Assembly (NCBI RefSeq): GCF_900010725.2
Contig: NZ_LR734868.1
Coordinates: 29,777 to 64,026, forward strand
DNA: 34,250 nt
Origin: Planktothrix serta PCC 8927
GTDB taxonomy: Bacteria; Cyanobacteriota; Cyanobacteriia; Cyanobacteriales; Microcoleaceae
Direction of reading: 5' to 3'
The notes under the pieces were generated by a model, which saw only the letters and a program-made list of their open reading frames with translations, made no database searches and was not told where the DNA came from. The position numbers and the translations under genes are program-made. Every line of letters begins with the position of its first letter. Positions within the stretch are counted from its first letter, which is position 1. Below are positions 18,912 through 27,242 of the stretch, piece by piece.

Positions 18912-21900
18912 ATGTTTACTTATGTAAAACCCACGATTAGACACATCAAGCCAGATGACCTGAACGGGCGACAACTGATGAAAGTCGTCTATGTGGTGTT
19001 AGAAGCGCAATATCAAAGCGCCTTATCGGCAGCAGTGGAGTCGATTAACAAAAATAACCCTAATGTGGCGATCGAAATTAGCGGTTATTTGATCGAGGAG
19101 TTACGTTCTCCCGAAAACTACGAAAGTTTTAAACAAGATTTATCAAAGGCTAATATTTTCATAGCCTCCCTGATTTTTATTGAAGATTTAGCGGATAAAC
19201 TCGTTGAAGCCGTGACCCCCTATCGGGATACACTAGATGTGGCGGTCGTCTTCCCCTCCATGCCTCAAGTCATGCGCCTGAATAAAATGGGGACGTTTTC
19301 GATGGCGCAACTGGGACAAAGCAAAAGTGCGATCGCCCAGTTCATGAAAAAACGGAAAGAACAGTCTGGGGGGTCTTTCCAAGATGCGATGCTGAAGTTG
19401 CTGCAAACTTTGCCCAAAGTCCTGAAATACCTGCCAATGGACAAGGCTCAGGATGCCCGCAACTTTATGTTATCCTTCCAATATTGGTTAGGGGGTTCTT
19501 CCGAAAACTTGGAAAACTTCTTGCTGATGTTAGGCTCAAAATATGTGTTTACGGGTAAAGAAAAACTGCAATTTGCTGACCCCGTAACCTATCCCGATAT
19601 GGGAATATGGCATCCCCTCGCGCCGAAAATGTTCGAGGATGCGACCGAATATTTTCACTGGTATAATAGCCGCGACGATATTTCCGACGACCCCAAAGAT
19701 CCCCTCGCTCCCTGTGTGGGGTTAGTCCTGCAACGGACGCACCTGGTAACAGGAGATGATGCCCATTATGTGGCGATGATACAGGAACTTGAAGCATTAG
19801 GGGCGCGAGTTTTACCTGTGTTTTCAGGCGGGTTAGACTTTTCTAAACCCATTGATGAGTATTTCTGGGATAACCCCCCGAAAGGTATTCAACCCCAAAC
19901 TATTGTGGATACTATTGTGTCGTTAACGGGTTTTGCCTTAGTGGGTGGCCCCGCTCGACAAGATCACCCGAAGGCGATAGACTCGTTAAAACGGTTAAAC
20001 CGTCCCTATATGGTGGCGTTGCCTTTAGTTTTCCAAACCACTGAAGAATGGGAAGAAAGCGATTTAGGGTTACATCCGATCCAAGTGGCGCTGCAAATTG
20101 CTATTCCTGAACTTGATGGCGCTATTGAACCGATTATTATCTCAGGACGGGATGGAACAACGGGGAAAGCGATCGCACTGCAAGATAGAATTGAAGCGAT
20201 CGCCCAACGATCCTTAAAATGGGCAAATTTGCGGAAAAAACCGAAATTAGCCAAAAAAGTGGCTATCACCGTCTTTAGCTTCCCCCCAGATAAAGGAAAC
20301 ATCGGGACGGCGGCTTATTTGGATGTGTTCGGGTCAATTTATGAAGTGTTGAAAGCCTTAAAAGGTAATGGCTATGACGTTCAAGACGTGCCCGACTCCG
20401 CCGAGAAACTGATGCAGGAAGTTATTCACGACGCCACGGCCCAATATCAAAGCCCAGAACTGAATATTGCCTATCGGATGTCTGTGAGCGAATATGAACG
20501 GTTAACCCCCTATTCTGAGCGCTTAAATGAAAATTGGGGGCCACCACCGGGAACCTTGAACACCGATGGCGAGAATTTGTTAGTCTTCGGAAAACAGTTC
20601 GGAAATGTGTTTATCGGCGTTCAACCCACCTTCGGCTATGAAGGCGACCCGATGCGGTTGTTGTTCTCCCGGTCAGCGAGTCCCCATCATGGCTTCGCTG
20701 CCTACTATACCTATTTAGAACAAGTCTGGCAAGCGGACGCGGTATTACACTTCGGCACGCACGGATCATTAGAATTCATGCCGGGTAAACAAATGGGAAT
20801 GTCGGGAGAATGCTACCCCGATAATTTAATTGGTAGTATTCCCAACCTATATTACTACGCCGCCAATAACCCCAGCGAAGCGACTATTGCCAAACGGCGC
20901 AGTTATGCCGCGACAATTTCTTATTTAACTCCGGCAGCAGAAAACGCTGGGTTATATAAAGGATTGCAAGAACTCAACGAGTTAATTGCCTCTTATCAAA
21001 GCCTAAAAGATAGCGGTCGGGGCGTGGCTATTGTTAACAGCATTATGGATAAGTGTCGCTTGGTGAATTTAGACCAAGATGTCACCCTCCCGGAAACAGA
21101 TGCTTCTGAGTTAACCCCCGAAGACCGAGATCAGATTGTTGGACAGGTTTATCGGCGGTTAATGGAAATTGAGTCGCGGTTGTTACCTTGTGGTTTGCAC
21201 CTTATTGGTAAACCCCCCACGGCCGAAGAAGCGATTTCAACTCTGGTAAATATCGCCAGTATTGATCGGGAGGAAGAAAATCTTCTCAGCTTACCCCGAA
21301 TTATTGCCAATAGCCTTAACCGCGATCTTGAGGAACTCTACTCTAACAATAACCTAGGGGTATTAGCGGATGTGGAGTTATTACAGAAAATCACCGAAGC
21401 TTGCCGCGCCGCCGTTATCGCCTTAGTTAACGAACAAACCGACGCCGAAGGACGGGTTTCCTTAGTCTCCAAACTCAACTTCTTCAATATGGGTAAAAAA
21501 GAACCCTGGATTGAAGCACTGCATGAGTTCGGTTTCACCAAAGTTGACCCCGAACCCATTAAACCGTTATTTGAGTATTTGGAATTTTGCTTACAACAGA
21601 TTTGCGCCGATAACGAGTTGGGTTCCTTGCTGCGAGCCTTAGAAGGAGAATACATCATCCCAGGGCCAGGTGGTGACCCCATCCGTAACCCCGATGTGTT
21701 ACCGACGGGCAAAAATATGCACGCCCTCGATCCCCAGTCTATTCCCACCGCAGCCGCCGTCAAATCCGCCCAAATCGTCGTAGAACGGCTGTTAGAACGG
21801 CAAAAGGTCGAAAATGGTGGAAATTACCCGGAAACCATCTCCGTAGTCCTCTGGGGAACCGATAACATCAAAACCTATGGGGAGTCCCTAGCCCAAGTGA

Positions 21901-22895
21901 TGTGGATGGTGGGGGTTAAACCTGTTCCCGATGCGTTAGGACGGGTGAATAAGTTGGAGTTAATTTCTTTAGAAGAATTGGGACGACCTCGAATTGATGT
22001 CGTGATCAACTGTTCTGGGGTGTTCCGCGACTTATTTATTAACCAAATGGCGCTATTAGATAAAGCGGTGAAAATGGCAGCCGAATCTGATGAACCGTTG
22101 GAAATGAATTTTGTTCGTAAACACGCGATAGAACAGGCGAAAGAGTTAGGAGTATCGGTAAGACAAGCTGCAACACGGGTGTTTAGTAATGCGTCAGGTT
22201 CCTATTCTTCTAATGTGAATTTGGCGGTTGAAAATAGTAGTTGGGAACAGGAATCTGAGTTACAGGAAATGTATTTGAAACGCAAATCTTTTGCTTTCAA
22301 TTCTGATAATCCGGGGACAATGGAACAGGATCGAAATATATTTGAGTCGGCGTTAAAAACCGCAGATGTGACATTTCAAAACTTAGATTCTTCGGAAATT
22401 AGTTTAACGGATGTCTCCCATTATTTCGATTCTGACCCGACGAAATTAATTTCCAGTTTACGCAAGGATGGCAAAAAACCGACGTCTTATATTGCGGATA
22501 CAACAACAGCTAATGCACAGGTGCGGACGTTATCGGAAACGGTGCGTTTGGATGCACGGACTAAACTTCTAAACCCGAAATGGTATGAAGGAATGTTATC
22601 TCATGGGTATGAAGGGGTGCGGGAACTTTCTAAGCGCCTTGTTAATACAATGGGATGGAGTGCAACGGCGGGTGCTGTGGATAATTGGGTTTATGAGGAT
22701 GTGAATGAAACGTTTATTGAAGATGCAGAAATGCAGAAACGTTTGATGAACTTAAATCCTCATTCTTTCCGTAAGATTATTAGCACGTTGTTAGAGGTTA
22801 ATGGTCGCGGCTATTGGGAAACTAGCGAGGAGAATTTAGATCGTCTGCGGGAGTTATACCAAGAAGTTGAAGACCGTATTGAAGGGATTGAATAA
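18912..22895 (+). CDS. chlH: Magnesium chelatase subunit H
   Basis: 1327 residues, the standard length of ChlH. With ChlI and ChlD it inserts Mg2+ into protoporphyrin IX, the committed step to chlorophyll; H is the porphyrin-binding catalytic subunit. Features seen: the N-terminal Mg-chelatase H domain ([18 protein letters not shown]), the CobN/Mg-chelatase signature [15 protein letters not shown] near residue 612, and the conserved C-terminal region ([18 protein letters not shown], about 1218). AAGGA lies about 11 bases before the ATG. The gene is in sense with accC but separated by 266 bp, so it probably has its own promoter. The direct repeat that borders the restriction-modification cassette begins 11 bases past its stop. 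Confidence 0.97.
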
Positions 22896-22905
22896 AACCC
22901 TTTAA

Positions 22906-22994
22906 AATCCCCATTTCCCTCGGTACAGATGTTGTATGCAATATCTTTATCGGGGGGATATAATTTTTAATGAGGATATCATTTGAACCCATTG
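22906..22994 (+). repeat. Direct repeat copy A bordering the RM cassette
   Basis: 89 bp aligning without gaps to 25546-25634, about 72 identities by hand. The best-conserved parts are ATATCTTTA-CG-GGGGATATAAT and GGATATCATTT-AACCCATTG. TCCCTCGGTA (22916-22925) can pair with TATCGGGGGG (22948-22957) as ten base pairs including three G-U. Confidence 0.85.
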
Positions 22995-23075
22995 AGAGAA
23001 AGAATATGGAATCATCAGTTAAAAATAGTTAGTTATTAGAGACGAAACCATTGTTTATTTTGATATTTTTTAATG

Positions 23076-23084
23076 TGTTATAAT
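23076..23084 (+). promoter_or_regulatory. Extended -10 promoter of the methyltransferase gene
   Basis: TGTTATAAT is an extended -10 (TG-n-TATAAT) 49 bases before the methyltransferase ATG. No good -35 lies at 16-18 bases, which extended -10 promoters can tolerate. Confidence 0.5.
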
Positions 23085-23133
23085 AAGATTTAGCTATTAC
23101 AATCAATATTTAATATTAATCAATTATTTACTA

Positions 23134-24165
23134 ATGAGTATTTACTTCAAAACTCCAGAAATCACTTTATATCAAGGAGACTGTTTAGAAGTCTTATCAT
23201 TACTTCCTGAAGAATCAGTAAATCTGATTGTTACCGATCCTCCTTACCACTCAACCAAAAAAGCTAATATCACTGGCGACAGAAATTTTAAGACTGATGA
23301 AGAATATCTAGCTTGGTTAGAGTCAATAACTGAACAATGGCAGCGAATATTAGCTCCCAATGGTTCTATTTATTGTTTTACTTCTTCTAAAATGGCAGCC
23401 CAAGTAGAGGTAATGTTAAGCAAAAAATTCAATATTTTAGCTTCAATCACTTGGACTAAACCTAATGATCCAGGTTATGATGGATGGAAGCAAAAAACAA
23501 AAAAAGAAAGTTTACGAAGTTGGTATTTACACTCGGAACGGATTATTTTTGCTGAAGCAACTTCTAAAGAAAACCCAAAACTATCAGCATTTAGCTTTTT
23601 ATTAAAAAAGACTCGTTTAGCAACAGGATTATCTACAATTGAACTCACAGAGGCTATAGGAGAATACGGTAGTGTTAATCATGGTGGTGCTGTATCAAAT
23701 TGGGAAACAGGTAGGAATATTCCCAATTGTGAACAATATGAAAAACTAAAATCTGTGTTTTCTAAATACGCTCCTGAAGTTCCACAACTCCCTGATTATG
23801 AAAAAATTATTAGACCTTTCTTTGTTAATTCTGATATTCTTTACACAGATATTTGGGATTTTAAAACGGTTAAACCTTATACCGGTAAGCACCCTGCTGA
23901 AAAACCTTTAGATCTAATTAAACATATTATTAATACAAGCTCTTATCCTAATGATATCATTTTGGATTGTTTTGCGGGTTCTGGTGTAGTTGGTCAAGCT
24001 GCTAAAATTCTTGGTAGAAAAGCAATCTTGGTAGAAATTGAAGAAAATTTGTGTGAAAAGATATCCCAAAGATGTTCCACCTCTGCTCATCAATTACCAA
24101 AAGCGCAGCCTAAAAATTTTGACTGGAAACAAGAACCCTTATTTCAATCCTTACTTAAAAGCTAG
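23134..24165 (+). CDS. Type II DNA methyltransferase, beta class (N6-adenine or N4-cytosine)
   Basis: 343 residues. Catalytic motif IV is DPPY (35-38), and the SAM-binding motif I DCFAGSG (278-284) comes near the C-terminus after motif X (HPAEKPLDLIKHII, 253-266). This order defines the beta class. It protects host DNA from the restriction enzyme encoded convergently five bases away. Residues about 150-212 (FSFLLKKTRLATGLSTIELTE, AVSNWETGRNIPNCEQYEKL) look like an XRE-type helix-turn-helix placed in the target-recognition region between motif VIII and motif X; this may help read the target or bind an operator (inference). The gene is AT-rich compared with chlH, which suggests horizontal transfer. 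Confidence 0.92.
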   Translation: MSIYFKTPEITLYQGDCLEVLSLLPEESVNLIVTDPPYHSTKKANITGDRNFKTDEEYLAWLESITEQWQRILAPNGSIYCFTSSKMAAQVEVMLSKKFNILASITWTKPNDPGYDGWKQKTKKESLRSWYLHSERIIFAEATSKENPKLSAFSFLLKKTRLATGLSTIELTEAIGEYGSVNHGGAVSNWETGRNIPNCEQYEKLKSVFSKYAPEVPQLPDYEKIIRPFFVNSDILYTDIWDFKTVKPYTGKHPAEKPLDLIKHIINTSSYPNDIILDCFAGSGVVGQAAKILGRKAILVEIEENLCEKISQRCSTSAHQLPKAQPKNFDWKQEPLFQSLLKS

Positions 24166-24170
24166 TAAAG

Positions 24171-25169
24171 TTAATTTTGCATTAATTCAATTTTTCTTCC
24201 ATTATTACGGAGAATTTCTTCCATCCATGATAGTGTTCGTTCAATTCCCCAATCTCTTGCGGCTGCATTGCAATGATGATGACCCCAACCCAAATTATAA
24301 GAACAATGGTTGTATTCTCCTGCTCTCAGTTCTCTAATATGAAATAAATTTGCTGTAGTTACTGTTAAATCTGGAACATTTCTACCTTCTGCTTGTTCTA
24401 CACGAGAAGCTAGTTCTTGAGCTAAAATAGGCTTTAAACATAATGGACAAATAGCACGTTGTTGGCTATCTATTATTCTATGTTCTTCAAGAAGTTTTAA
24501 GTCAGCAACACCGAGATCCTCGCACTCCTTGTCTATTTTCTGTTTGCATTCATCAGGATTTTCTATTCCTTCATCGCGAGCTATATCCATAATTCCTTCA
24601 GTTCGCCATGCCAGAAAAGATAATTGATATCTTGTGGCTTTTATTTCTTCAGATGAAGCATATTCATACACTCTAATTCCTGCACCTTGACCACCGCTAT
24701 TACTATCAATGTATCCTTGTCTGATGAAGGAATCATCTTGACTGGTGGTATCTGGTACACGAGCTACATACTTCCCACCTAATGGTGATTTCCTTGATGT
24801 TGCTGACTGCCAATCTTTATATTGATTTGGATTATATGAGTTCCATTGTTGTCTAGTTTCATAATATACTAATAAATTCTCTCCTATAGTCAAATTATTG
24901 GGTAAACTGGAACTGGCTGATGGTGGAGTATCAGAAAAGTAGTTTTCTGGATCAGCTATAACAATATAACCGTTCTCAAATCCTTTATCTGGGAAAGCAA
25001 TTCCTAGTGTCCATGAACTAAGAGGGATTATAACTGTATTATTTCGGTTAACACGATTCTGATAAATTGTATCCTTTTCTGCACCTCTAGTTTGACCAGT
25101 CTTCTCTACTTTTCTTGCAATTGCAGCAGGTAAGCCTAATTTATAGCTGATCTTACTTTTTTTAGACAT
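24171..25169 (-). CDS. Type II restriction endonuclease, HNH-like, possibly BstXI family
   Basis: 332 residues. The C-terminal third has a zinc/HNH-like arrangement: CPLC (C241, C244), LFHIRELRAGEYNH (H277, H288) and NLGWGHHHCN (H297-H299, C300). The N-terminal part (TIYQNRVNRNN) has no domain I can name with certainty, but the overall protein reminds me of the BstXI family; that name is a recollection, not a search. Function as a restriction enzyme follows from its place: convergent with the methyltransferase (five-base gap) and overlapping the controller gene by eight bases (ATGTCTAA), a typical C-R pair. No frame disruption is visible, so the system may be active. Confidence 0.82.
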   Translation of the reverse strand: MSKKSKISYKLGLPAAIARKVEKTGQTRGAEKDTIYQNRVNRNNTVIIPLSSWTLGIAFPDKGFENGYIVIADPENYFSDTPPSASSSLPNNLTIGENLLVYYETRQQWNSYNPNQYKDWQSATSRKSPLGGKYVARVPDTTSQDDSFIRQGYIDSNSGGQGAGIRVYEYASSEEIKATRYQLSFLAWRTEGIMDIARDEGIENPDECKQKIDKECEDLGVADLKLLEEHRIIDSQQRAICPLCLKPILAQELASRVEQAEGRNVPDLTVTTANLFHIRELRAGEYNHCSYNLGWGHHHCNAAARDWGIERTLSWMEEILRNNGRKIELMQN

Positions 25170-25413
25170 AATCGCCCCTATCTACCCCATAGTTAGCAAA
25201 AAGAGCAGAAACAGATATATTAAGCGCATCGGCTAACTTTTCAATATTTTCTAAGGATGGGTTGCGCTCACCTCTTTCGATACTGGAAATATAGGTACGA
25301 TGAAGACCCGACAGTTCAGATAATTTCTCCTGAGAAATATCTAACTCTCTTCTACGTCGCCTGATTGCTTTACCAAAGCGCGTTTTAATATCTTTTTGAT
25401 TTTGTTGCTCCAA
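25162..25413 (-). CDS. Restriction-modification controller protein (C protein, XRE family HTH)
   Basis: 83 residues with a single five-helix XRE domain: ISQEKLSELSGLHRTYISSIERGERNPSL with the standard recognition helix, then LADALNISVSALF. Small XRE proteins overlapping a restriction gene are C proteins that delay and limit nuclease expression until the methyltransferase has acted. The start codon is TTG (25411-25413): an in-frame TAA lies two codons upstream, so it cannot extend further, and no in-frame ATG lies close downstream. A GGAG overlaps codon 2, so it is not a usable Shine-Dalgarno for this start. C-gene transcripts are often leaderless, which could apply here. Confidence 0.88.
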   Translation of the reverse strand: MEQQNQKDIKTRFGKAIRRRRRELDISQEKLSELSGLHRTYISSIERGERNPSLENIEKLADALNISVSALFANYGVDRGDYV

Positions 25414-25445
25414 AATTTAATTATTTCAGACTTAAATAATTTGAT

Positions 25446-25485
25446 CTACAGACTATATATAAACTTTTGAATAGTATAAGTCTAC
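25446..25485 (-). promoter_or_regulatory. Putative C-box operator and promoter of the controller-restriction operon
   Basis: AGACTATATA (25450-25459) and TATAAGTCT (25475-25483) form an imperfect inverted repeat 37-72 bases upstream of the controller start. Its GACT/AGTC half-sites match the core of known C-boxes (GACT...AGTC). AT-rich hexamers inside it could serve as the -10. Confidence 0.5.
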
Positions 25486-25545
25486 ATTAAATAAGTTTCA
25501 AAATGAATACTATGAGTATCAATTTGGGCGAACCTAGAAATGAGG

Positions 25546-25634
25546 AATCCCTATTCCCCTGGGTAGAAACGTGGTATATCATATCTTTACCGAGGGGATA
25601 TAATTGTTGTTTAGGATATCATTTCAACCCATTG
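25546..25634 (+). repeat. Direct repeat copy B bordering the RM cassette
   Basis: Partner of 22906-22994. CCCCTGGGTA (25556-25565) faces TACCGAGGGG (25588-25597), pairing at nine of ten positions across a 22-base AT-rich spacer. Confidence 0.85.
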
Positions 25635-25767
25635 GTCGGTTCAGTCAATAATTGAAAAAGTATTATTTAACATGGACTATTATGAGATTCCATAGAAGAT
25701 TAATCAGCCGAATCATCTCCACCACATATAAAATATCGATAATTTATGTAAATAGTTTTTCTAAATA

Positions 25768-25801
25768 TGATATAATAGTAAGGTTTAGATAGTGCGATCG
25801 C
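25768..25801 (+). promoter_or_regulatory. Extended -10 promoter of the unknown two-gene operon, with a HIP1 site
   Basis: TGATATAAT (25768-25776) is an extended -10 box. A HIP1 octamer GCGATCGC follows at 25794-25801. AGAGG (25821-25825) lies nine bases before the first ATG. Confidence 0.5.
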
Positions 25802-26681: not shown

Positions 26682-26732
26682 TATTTTATGTTATTATGTA
26701 CTAAATATTCTACCAAATCATCCTCTTTAATT

Positions 26733-26945
26733 ATGCTAGAAATTCACAAAAATTATATTGTTGATGAAAATCAAAATCCGATTGCTGTTCAGATTCCGAT
26801 TGCTGAATTCGAGAAAATCGAAGAAATTTTAGAAGATTACTTCTTAGGTAAAATGATGGCAGATGAAGAAGATGCAGAAATTTTATCTAAATCAGAAGCT
26901 CTCAAATATTATCAAGGGTTAAAAGAAAGTAATGTGGGTTGTTAG
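26733..26945 (+). CDS. RelB/Phd-like antitoxin
   Basis: 70 residues from the ATG at 26733 (MLEIHKNYIVDENQNPIAVQIP); an upstream in-frame ATG at 26688 would add 15 residues atypical of the family. The N-terminal beta-hairpin plus IPIAEFEKIEEILEDY helix is the common cyanobacterial antitoxin pattern, with an acidic tail that wraps its toxin. It overlaps the toxin reading frame by 14 bases, the usual antitoxin-first layout. The antitoxin is intact although the toxin is not. Confidence 0.82.
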   Translation: MLEIHKNYIVDENQNPIAVQIPIAEFEKIEEILEDYFLGKMMADEEDAEILSKSEALKYYQGLKESNVGC

Positions 26946-27129
26946 ATATACAAAAAAGTTTTTAAAAGAAATGAATTCTCTCCCCCAAGATGTTCAGTCT
27001 CGAATAGAAATTATTGTTTTTCAAGAACTAGAATGCCAAAACCCATTTGAGTTAGGATACTTAAGTAAAATGAAAGGATATACTGATAACTCTGAACTTC
27101 AAGCATTTATTGATCGATACTCAGCTTGA
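26932..27129 (+). pseudogene. Truncated RelE/ParE-family toxin
   Basis: The first 50 residues (VVRYTKKFLKEMNSLPQDVQ ... FELGYLSKMKGYTD) match the N-terminal half of RelE-type mRNA interferases. After KGYTD the family would continue with the strands carrying the catalytic Arg residues (a KIRxGDYRxxY-type segment and a C-terminal hRxDxY). Here it reads NSELQAFIDRYSA and stops at 65 residues instead of about 85-90. The missing half holds the active site, so it should be inactive. The junction is at about 27080-27090 and looks like a deletion or recombination joining to an unrelated tail. Confidence 0.75.
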
Positions 27130-27155
27130 TAGAAAAACGAATTTATATTTTATCG

Positions 27156-27177
27156 TTCCCAGGCTCCCGCCTGGGAA
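27156..27177. repeat. Perfect 9-bp hairpin (TTCCCAGGC/GCCTGGGAA)
   Basis: TTCCCAGGC-TCCC-GCCTGGGAA, directly after the toxin remnant. It resembles a GTTCCCAGGCTCC-type element dispersed in many cyanobacterial genomes (from memory). No T-run follows, so it is a poor intrinsic terminator. Confidence 0.75.
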
Positions 27178-27242
27178 TACCATATTGATGAGGCTCTACC
27201 CATCCGCATCTTGTTAAATGTAACGAAATATTACAAATATGC

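Follow-up and report, generated by a model that had tools for sequence, protein, structure and literature searches.

What do long direct repeats on either side of a restriction-modification (R-M) cassette record? The question is raised by the window, i.e., the whole stretch of 34,250 nt that was analysed and in which all positions are counted, where the genes of an R-M module stand downstream of chlH between two similar 89-nt sequences. Repeats around defence cassettes need a tree before they are labelled as insertion scars or excision sites, and the comparison set used here consisted of nine congeners (G001 to G009) and the window's own genome, ten genomes of the genus altogether. Based on this comparison, the R-M module at this locus belongs to a known family and lies in a variable region, and the most plausible reading of its repeats is that they represent two alleles of a local control region.

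Genes and probable operator of the module

The module includes the following features.

23134-24165, plus strand: DNA methyltransferase M (N6_N4_Mtase PF01555, E value 1e-39; PADLOC MTase_II)
24171-25169, minus strand: BstXI-family restriction endonuclease R (PF09552, E value 1.8e-70; PADLOC REase_II)
25162-25413, minus strand: controller-like XRE regulator C (HTH_3, E value 3.4e-19; PADLOC Control_protein), with an 8-nt overlap with R
25446-25485, minus strand: probable C-box operator upstream of C and R, from conservation of the upstream region against shuffled sequences

The coordinates and strands place C and R in one unit, C preceding R, with M convergent to it. The match of R to PF09552 spans the whole profile, and its comparison with solved structures returned two weak matches only (E values 0.049 and 0.56). 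The best solved-structure matches of C are C.BclI (E value 1.2e-17) and C.AhdI (E value 1.8e-12), with C.Esp1396I (PDB: 3clc) in 12th place of 30 (E value 2.5e-6). The region before C scored higher than all 1000 shuffles against each of three related loci (L046, L047, and L049), and 1/1000 shuffles was as high against L048 and against plasmid pEsp1396, each. A simple box pattern with two mismatches is not enriched over the whole window (19 found, 21.25 expected). By family, by layout, and by the presence of C together with a putative C-box operator, the module is a predicted BstXI-family, C-controlled Type II R-M system, whose R and M would cleave and methylate a cognate site.

Upstream of M, neither a box-like match nor a conserved sequence was found. 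Control of M by C is therefore unsupported and, because no OM operator precedes M, the module was not assigned to the Esp1396I type with respect to regulation. By eye, residues 150-215 or so of M, between the catalytic motifs, resemble an XRE-type HTH, and a similar stretch is present in M of L046, L047, L048, and L076; Pfam scans of M returned no HTH.

Anatomy of the repeats and limits of the inserted segment

The left and right copies of the repeat, E_L and E_R (also W_L and W_R), and their surroundings are arranged as follows.

18912-22895, plus strand: ORF of 1327 aa, left neighbour of the repeats, which we take to be chlH, for the H subunit of magnesium chelatase (so named in the preliminary description and recognised by eye)
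22906-22994, plus strand: E_L, a degenerate REP-like hairpin, TATAAT (22959-22964) and the leader of gene Y; class-A allele
23006-23032, plus strand: stub of gene Y, in which 7 native codons (MESSVKN) are followed by a single extra codon and a TAG stop; congener homology to 23026
23027-25529, no strand: inserted R-M segment, between the end of the E_L/Y homology and the start of the E_R flank homology; 34.0% GC
25530-25545, plus strand: 16-nt flank of E_R, half of a palindrome in G002 and G003
25546-25634, plus strand: E_R, the leader of gene Y in its class-B allele, with TATAAT at 25599-25604

E_L starts 11 nt past the chlH stop (22895) and aligns with E_R over 89 nt without gaps (72/89 identical; 80.9%), with a longest common exact run of 12 nt. 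The preliminary description of three R-M genes between two ungapped repeats of about 81% identity, the left one 11 bases after chlH, is thus accurate in its coordinates. When the whole 6.27-Mb genome was searched with both copies as queries, the second copy was recovered at an E value of 2.0e-17, far above chance, and there was no third match at E <= 0.001. As had been noted, the DNA between the copies is AT-rich: its GC content is 34.0%, against 40.9% in the window as a whole and 45.9% in chlH, and 5% of equal-size windows are as low. Besides C, R, and M, the ORF list has a fourth entry here (99 aa, 24038-24337), which overlaps M and R; by eye no transposase or integrase was seen among the listed ORFs of at least 60 aa inside the segment, in agreement with the earlier statement.

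The repeats had also been taken as the ends of the cassette, and here homology to the congeners redraws the limits. The homology of E_L reaches 23026 (121 nt), i.e., 32 nt beyond the end of E_R, and that of E_R begins at 25530; the inserted segment is therefore 23027-25529. Among the congener matches to E, the two in G002 and G003 are the only ones that continue through the 16-nt flank. On the right side, E_R stops short of Y at a point where approximately 11 nt would be left before its ATG, and other sequence follows in place of Y. Gene Y is destroyed on both sides, and the end points of the two copies differ.

These end points bear on an explanation that has precedent among R-M genes, namely insertion with long target duplication, in which the module would have copied an 89-bp target in E and the copies would have diverged later. 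Congeners with a single copy at an empty site, described below, are in keeping with it. Against it stand the left homology that continues past the end of the right copy, the separate 16-nt flank of E_R, and the fact that the rest of Y follows neither copy.

To the right of the cassette, 25672-25725 and 27146-27200 match pieces of the chlH-E interval of G002 (both) and of G003 (the second only); the pieces stand in a different order in G002, and the region looks scrambled. Between them, 26688-27129 carries a RelB-like antitoxin ORF (PF18506) followed by a short ORF with no family match, possibly a toxin-antitoxin remnant.

The E locus and gene Y in nine congeners

Exactly one match to E was found in 7/9 congeners and none in G001 and G006; E is therefore not a repeat scattered at random. 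The DNA of chlH is 91-94% identical in the congeners, and G006, whose contig ends 259 nt after it, was left out of the locus comparison. In five of the nine (G004, G005, G007, G008, and G009) one E copy lies directly after chlH, the one-copy empty site that the preliminary description had proposed to look for. In G002 and G003, E is located about 1.5-2 kb further from chlH, with a RAYT-like transposase gene and small ORFs in between. The R-M genes are absent from this place in all eight congeners with the region visible, and the interpretation of the cassette as a discrete acquired module is upheld. The proposed search for the repeat together with other cargo had a divided outcome: no third copy was found in the window's genome at E <= 0.001, and G002 and G003 do have different cargo between chlH and E.

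The full 89 nt of E are retained in five congeners, and Y is next in all five. About 64 nt of E remain in G005 and in G009; Y comes next in the former, and a fragment of the gene after Y in the latter. Altogether, Y is directly 3' of E in 6/7 congeners with E. The product of Y (MESSVKNLPKIDVRAAV..., ~97-100 aa) had no match in family profile searches. Y is present once each in 6/10 genomes, with an internal stop in G004, and is absent from the window's genome. Its neighbour, considered as a possible PIN-like protein, had no family match above the cut-off. Because ATATAATT is kept in all nine E copies, E probably comprises a hairpin together with the promoter and leader of Y. A promoter scan returned 14 sites (12.6 expected), a number close to chance that carries no information, and the conserved TATAAT of E is absent from its list.

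At the one-copy sites E leads into Y in four and into the next-gene fragment in G009, and in 0/5 does it lead into the window's right flank. Since E is never joined straight to that flank, the five sites look never occupied rather than excised.

A RAYT-like gene lies directly downstream of chlH, next to a GTAG palindrome, in G002 (L020:9520-10086), G003 (L021:9351-9917), and G001 (L043); the G002 copy matches NF047646 at an E value of 5e-15 with 55.7 bits, under the cut-off of 80. The 3' side of chlH in this genus is a variable region, with cargo differing between species.

The hairpin of E and the REP palindromes

The GTAG palindromes of the genus correspond to REP elements as described, together with RAYT transposases, in the part of PMC3733652 available to us. 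The palindrome pattern has 42-163 matches per strand per genome (<= 2 mismatches), and its reversed control has 0. Compared with one variant of the palindrome, the less common one, the E hairpin scores 15-41, above all 2000 shuffles in 6/7 copies tested (E_L, 29 against a shuffle maximum of 22; G005, 41 against 19), with G008 reached by 7/2000 shuffles. With the commoner variant, G004 and G005 were reached by 0/1000, E_R by 1/1000, G002 by 6/1000, E_L by 371/1000, and G008 by 613/1000 shuffles. Whether the hairpin is identified as a REP varies with the variant chosen for comparison.

E_L folds better than its shuffles (z -3.5), and E_R does not (z 0.27). Across the copies, 90.6% of the cells in the hairpin pairs are paired, and this figure and the covariation score were each reached by 3/500 shuffles; only two pairs are changed on both sides, no better than shuffles (393/500). 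The pair-count evidence is weak, because the structure was taken from the fold of E_L itself and the double-sided changes are at shuffle level. Two Rfam matches under the gathering score in 22800-25800, one of them overlapping E_L, were treated as chance.

The likeness to one REP variant, the abundance of REPs in the genus, and the RAYT-like gene at the locus in three congeners might suggest a composite mobile unit, whose REP-bearing E copies would serve as ends for movement by a RAYT transposase in trans. The REP ends of E are decayed and non-identical, the E copies reach past the palindrome into the Y leader, and with both copies as queries no second copy of the unit was found in the ten genomes, all of which make this explanation very improbable.

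Two alleles, probably from two lineages

E_R is closest to the copies of G002 (97.8% identity) and G003 (94.4%), and E_L to those of G004 (91.0%) and G007/G008 (88.8%). In a tree of the nine copies (89 columns, two copies entered with 62 nt only), E_R groups with G002 and G003 with a support of 99/97, and E_L is located among the other species with a weaker support of 82/85. Constraining E_L and E_R to be sisters costs 29.6 log units even in the best such tree (AU p 5.96e-9), and an in-situ duplication of E is rejected by the same test. The result counts equally against target duplication, which we regard as improbable. The chlH tree (8/10 genomes) joins the window to G002 and G003 with a support of 100/100, so that E_R is the allele expected for the window's lineage. 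E_L and E_R are, by their placement in these trees, non-sister alleles of one locus from two lineages. Weighing against this reading are the shortness of E (89 columns, nine copies), the weak placement of E_L, and the lack of a clear recombination breakpoint in chlH, where 80 clade-diagnostic sites are mixed throughout.

Homologous loss needs a minimal length of homology. Because the longest uninterrupted identity between E_L and E_R is 12 nt, loss of the module by homologous exchange is unlikely, and the one-copy sites do not have the look of products of such loss. The preliminary view of recombination-prone repeats from which the cassette could be lost is not supported: the copies are not sisters, and E is not scattered.

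The explanation that we hold to be probable is that a BstXI-family Type II module with an Esp1396I-like layout was inserted by non-homologous joining into the variable region downstream of chlH, and that its repeats are two divergent alleles of locus E. This locus would consist of a decayed REP-type hairpin and the putative promoter and leader of the small gene Y, with class B (E_R) as the allele of the window's own clade and class A (E_L) as that of other species. E_L may have come with the R-M genes on a fragment that included E and Y as far as its seventh codon, or it may have been retained from an older tandem arrangement, E...E.

The second of these routes differs from the first in route only and is a version of the same explanation: both alleles would already have stood after chlH in the ancestor shared with G002 and G003, and the cargo would have been swapped later, RAYT there and R-M here. 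The sequence just after chlH in G001 resembles the 5' third of E (25/28 alignment columns match, with 3 gaps), a likeness that none of 1000 shuffles equalled when E of G004, E of G005, or E_R was the reference. It is less marked in G002 and G003 and depends on the copy compared (1-6/1000 for some, 110-705/1000 for others), and full E lies further down there behind different cargo. Because E-like sequence follows chlH in G001, and more weakly in G002 and G003, a tandem E arrangement may predate the R-M module. On the other hand, the post-chlH sequence of G001, G002, and G003 is mostly REP palindrome, which explains part of the likeness; compared with E_L it is at shuffle level (328, 705, and 366 of 1000, respectively); and two full E copies are found only in the window's genome among the ten. 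We consider the older tandem a possible route, held with clearly lower confidence than the general reading.

By either route, the module would act after entry as reported in the portion of the Esp1396I literature that we consulted (PMC4041747): M would be made first, C would bind the boxes at 25446-25485, and C and R would be switched on after a delay. The repeats are probably not involved in either the function or the loss of the module.

Relatives of the module and their flanking repeats

A scan of GTDB genomes revealed 57 loci with relatives of R in many phyla, and 5/386 genomes in a phylum sample, including the window's own, carried one. IMG/VR contributed 6 loci (42-59% identity) and plasmids 9 records (all < 60% identity), and there was no match in phage records; carriage by a phage or plasmid was thus rejected as the source. 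A piece of an R gene with 93% identity is located in G006 on a 7.4-kb contig (C80:5210-5947, record CAITND010000080.1, L042 = L050), where neither M nor C was found.

Sixty-seven loci were scored for layout, of which three repeat others (L042 = L050; L109 and L110 have the same figures as L052 and L077). With the presence of C judged from the window's C as query, 29 are C+R+M-, in 30 R+M- was present and C not found, and 8 have other patterns: three with R alone, one C+R+, one R+M+, L052 and L109, in which C lies elsewhere, and L110, a C+R+M- locus when read from the opposite strand. C preceding R with a convergent M is also the arrangement in L046-L049.

For flanking repeats 65 loci were listed and 55 tested, 10 being skipped for a missing M or a short flank, using 800-nt flanks and E <= 1e-3. 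A direct repeat at this threshold occurs at 9/55 testable BstXI-type modules, the window included, and a repeat of at least 50 nt at 5/55 (window, L056, L064, L071, and L076), i.e., 4/54 without the window. Among 312 control placements 9 had any repeat and 0 reached 50 nt; the difference for repeats of at least 50 nt has a Fisher p of 4e-4 without the window, with control placements that come from the same loci and are mutually non-independent. Several modules lie beside the 3' ends of host genes, presumably, as judged by eye from the protein sequences, carB (second tail in L076), proA (second tail in L064), and dnaK (second tail with a terminator-like hairpin in L056 and L058). L071 has a 91-nt palindrome-bearing repeat pair rather than a gene tail.

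These findings are what target duplication would lead one to expect at other loci, and the long repeats at other BstXI-type modules agree with the long target duplication published for R-M genes, as far as the consulted part of PMC3031569 describes it. The left and right carB tails of L076 are 94.2% identical, their status as sisters is not rejected (AU p 0.27), and L076 may be an ordinary copied target. For this reason a two-lineage origin is taken as shown for the window only.

Long repeats around R-M genes have hitherto been read as copied targets, and here they are better explained by the alleles of two lineages. As a generalisation we offer, with considerable doubt, that some R-M flanking repeats are the donor and recipient alleles of one locus, which came to stand next to each other when a fragment with the R-M genes and their neighbour was joined in by one homologous and one illegitimate end. 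If this were true, the divergence of the repeats would record the donor lineage of the R-M genes.

Comparison with known systems

The GTAG REP/RAYT system resembles the locus in the likeness of the E hairpin to one variant of the genus palindrome and in the RAYT-like gene at the same place in three congeners. It differs in that the palindrome of E is decayed and that E as a unit has a single match per genome elsewhere in the genus.

Insertion of R-M genes with a long target duplication has been reported (PMC3031569 and PMC3874152, the available parts of which cite Nobusato 2000 and Furuta 2010). The window's module is similar in lying between long direct repeats next to the 3' end of a host gene, and unlike it in the divergence of its two copies (81% identity), in their origin from two lineages, and in their unequal end points.

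With respect to the BstXI family (PF09552), R has the full-length profile match already described, and a target of the CCA-N-TGG type would fit the family.

The closest parallel in layout is Esp1396I from plasmid pEsp1396 (NC_004936.1), whose C, R, and M are 38.6%, 43.3%, and 54.3% identical, respectively, to those of the window. According to the consulted part of PMC4041747, this system has a C-R unit, a convergent M, and control by C, and C.Esp1396I also represses M. The window's module differs in being chromosomal and in that no operator was found before M; it shares with pEsp1396 a C-R unit convergent with M and a C-box-like operator before C.
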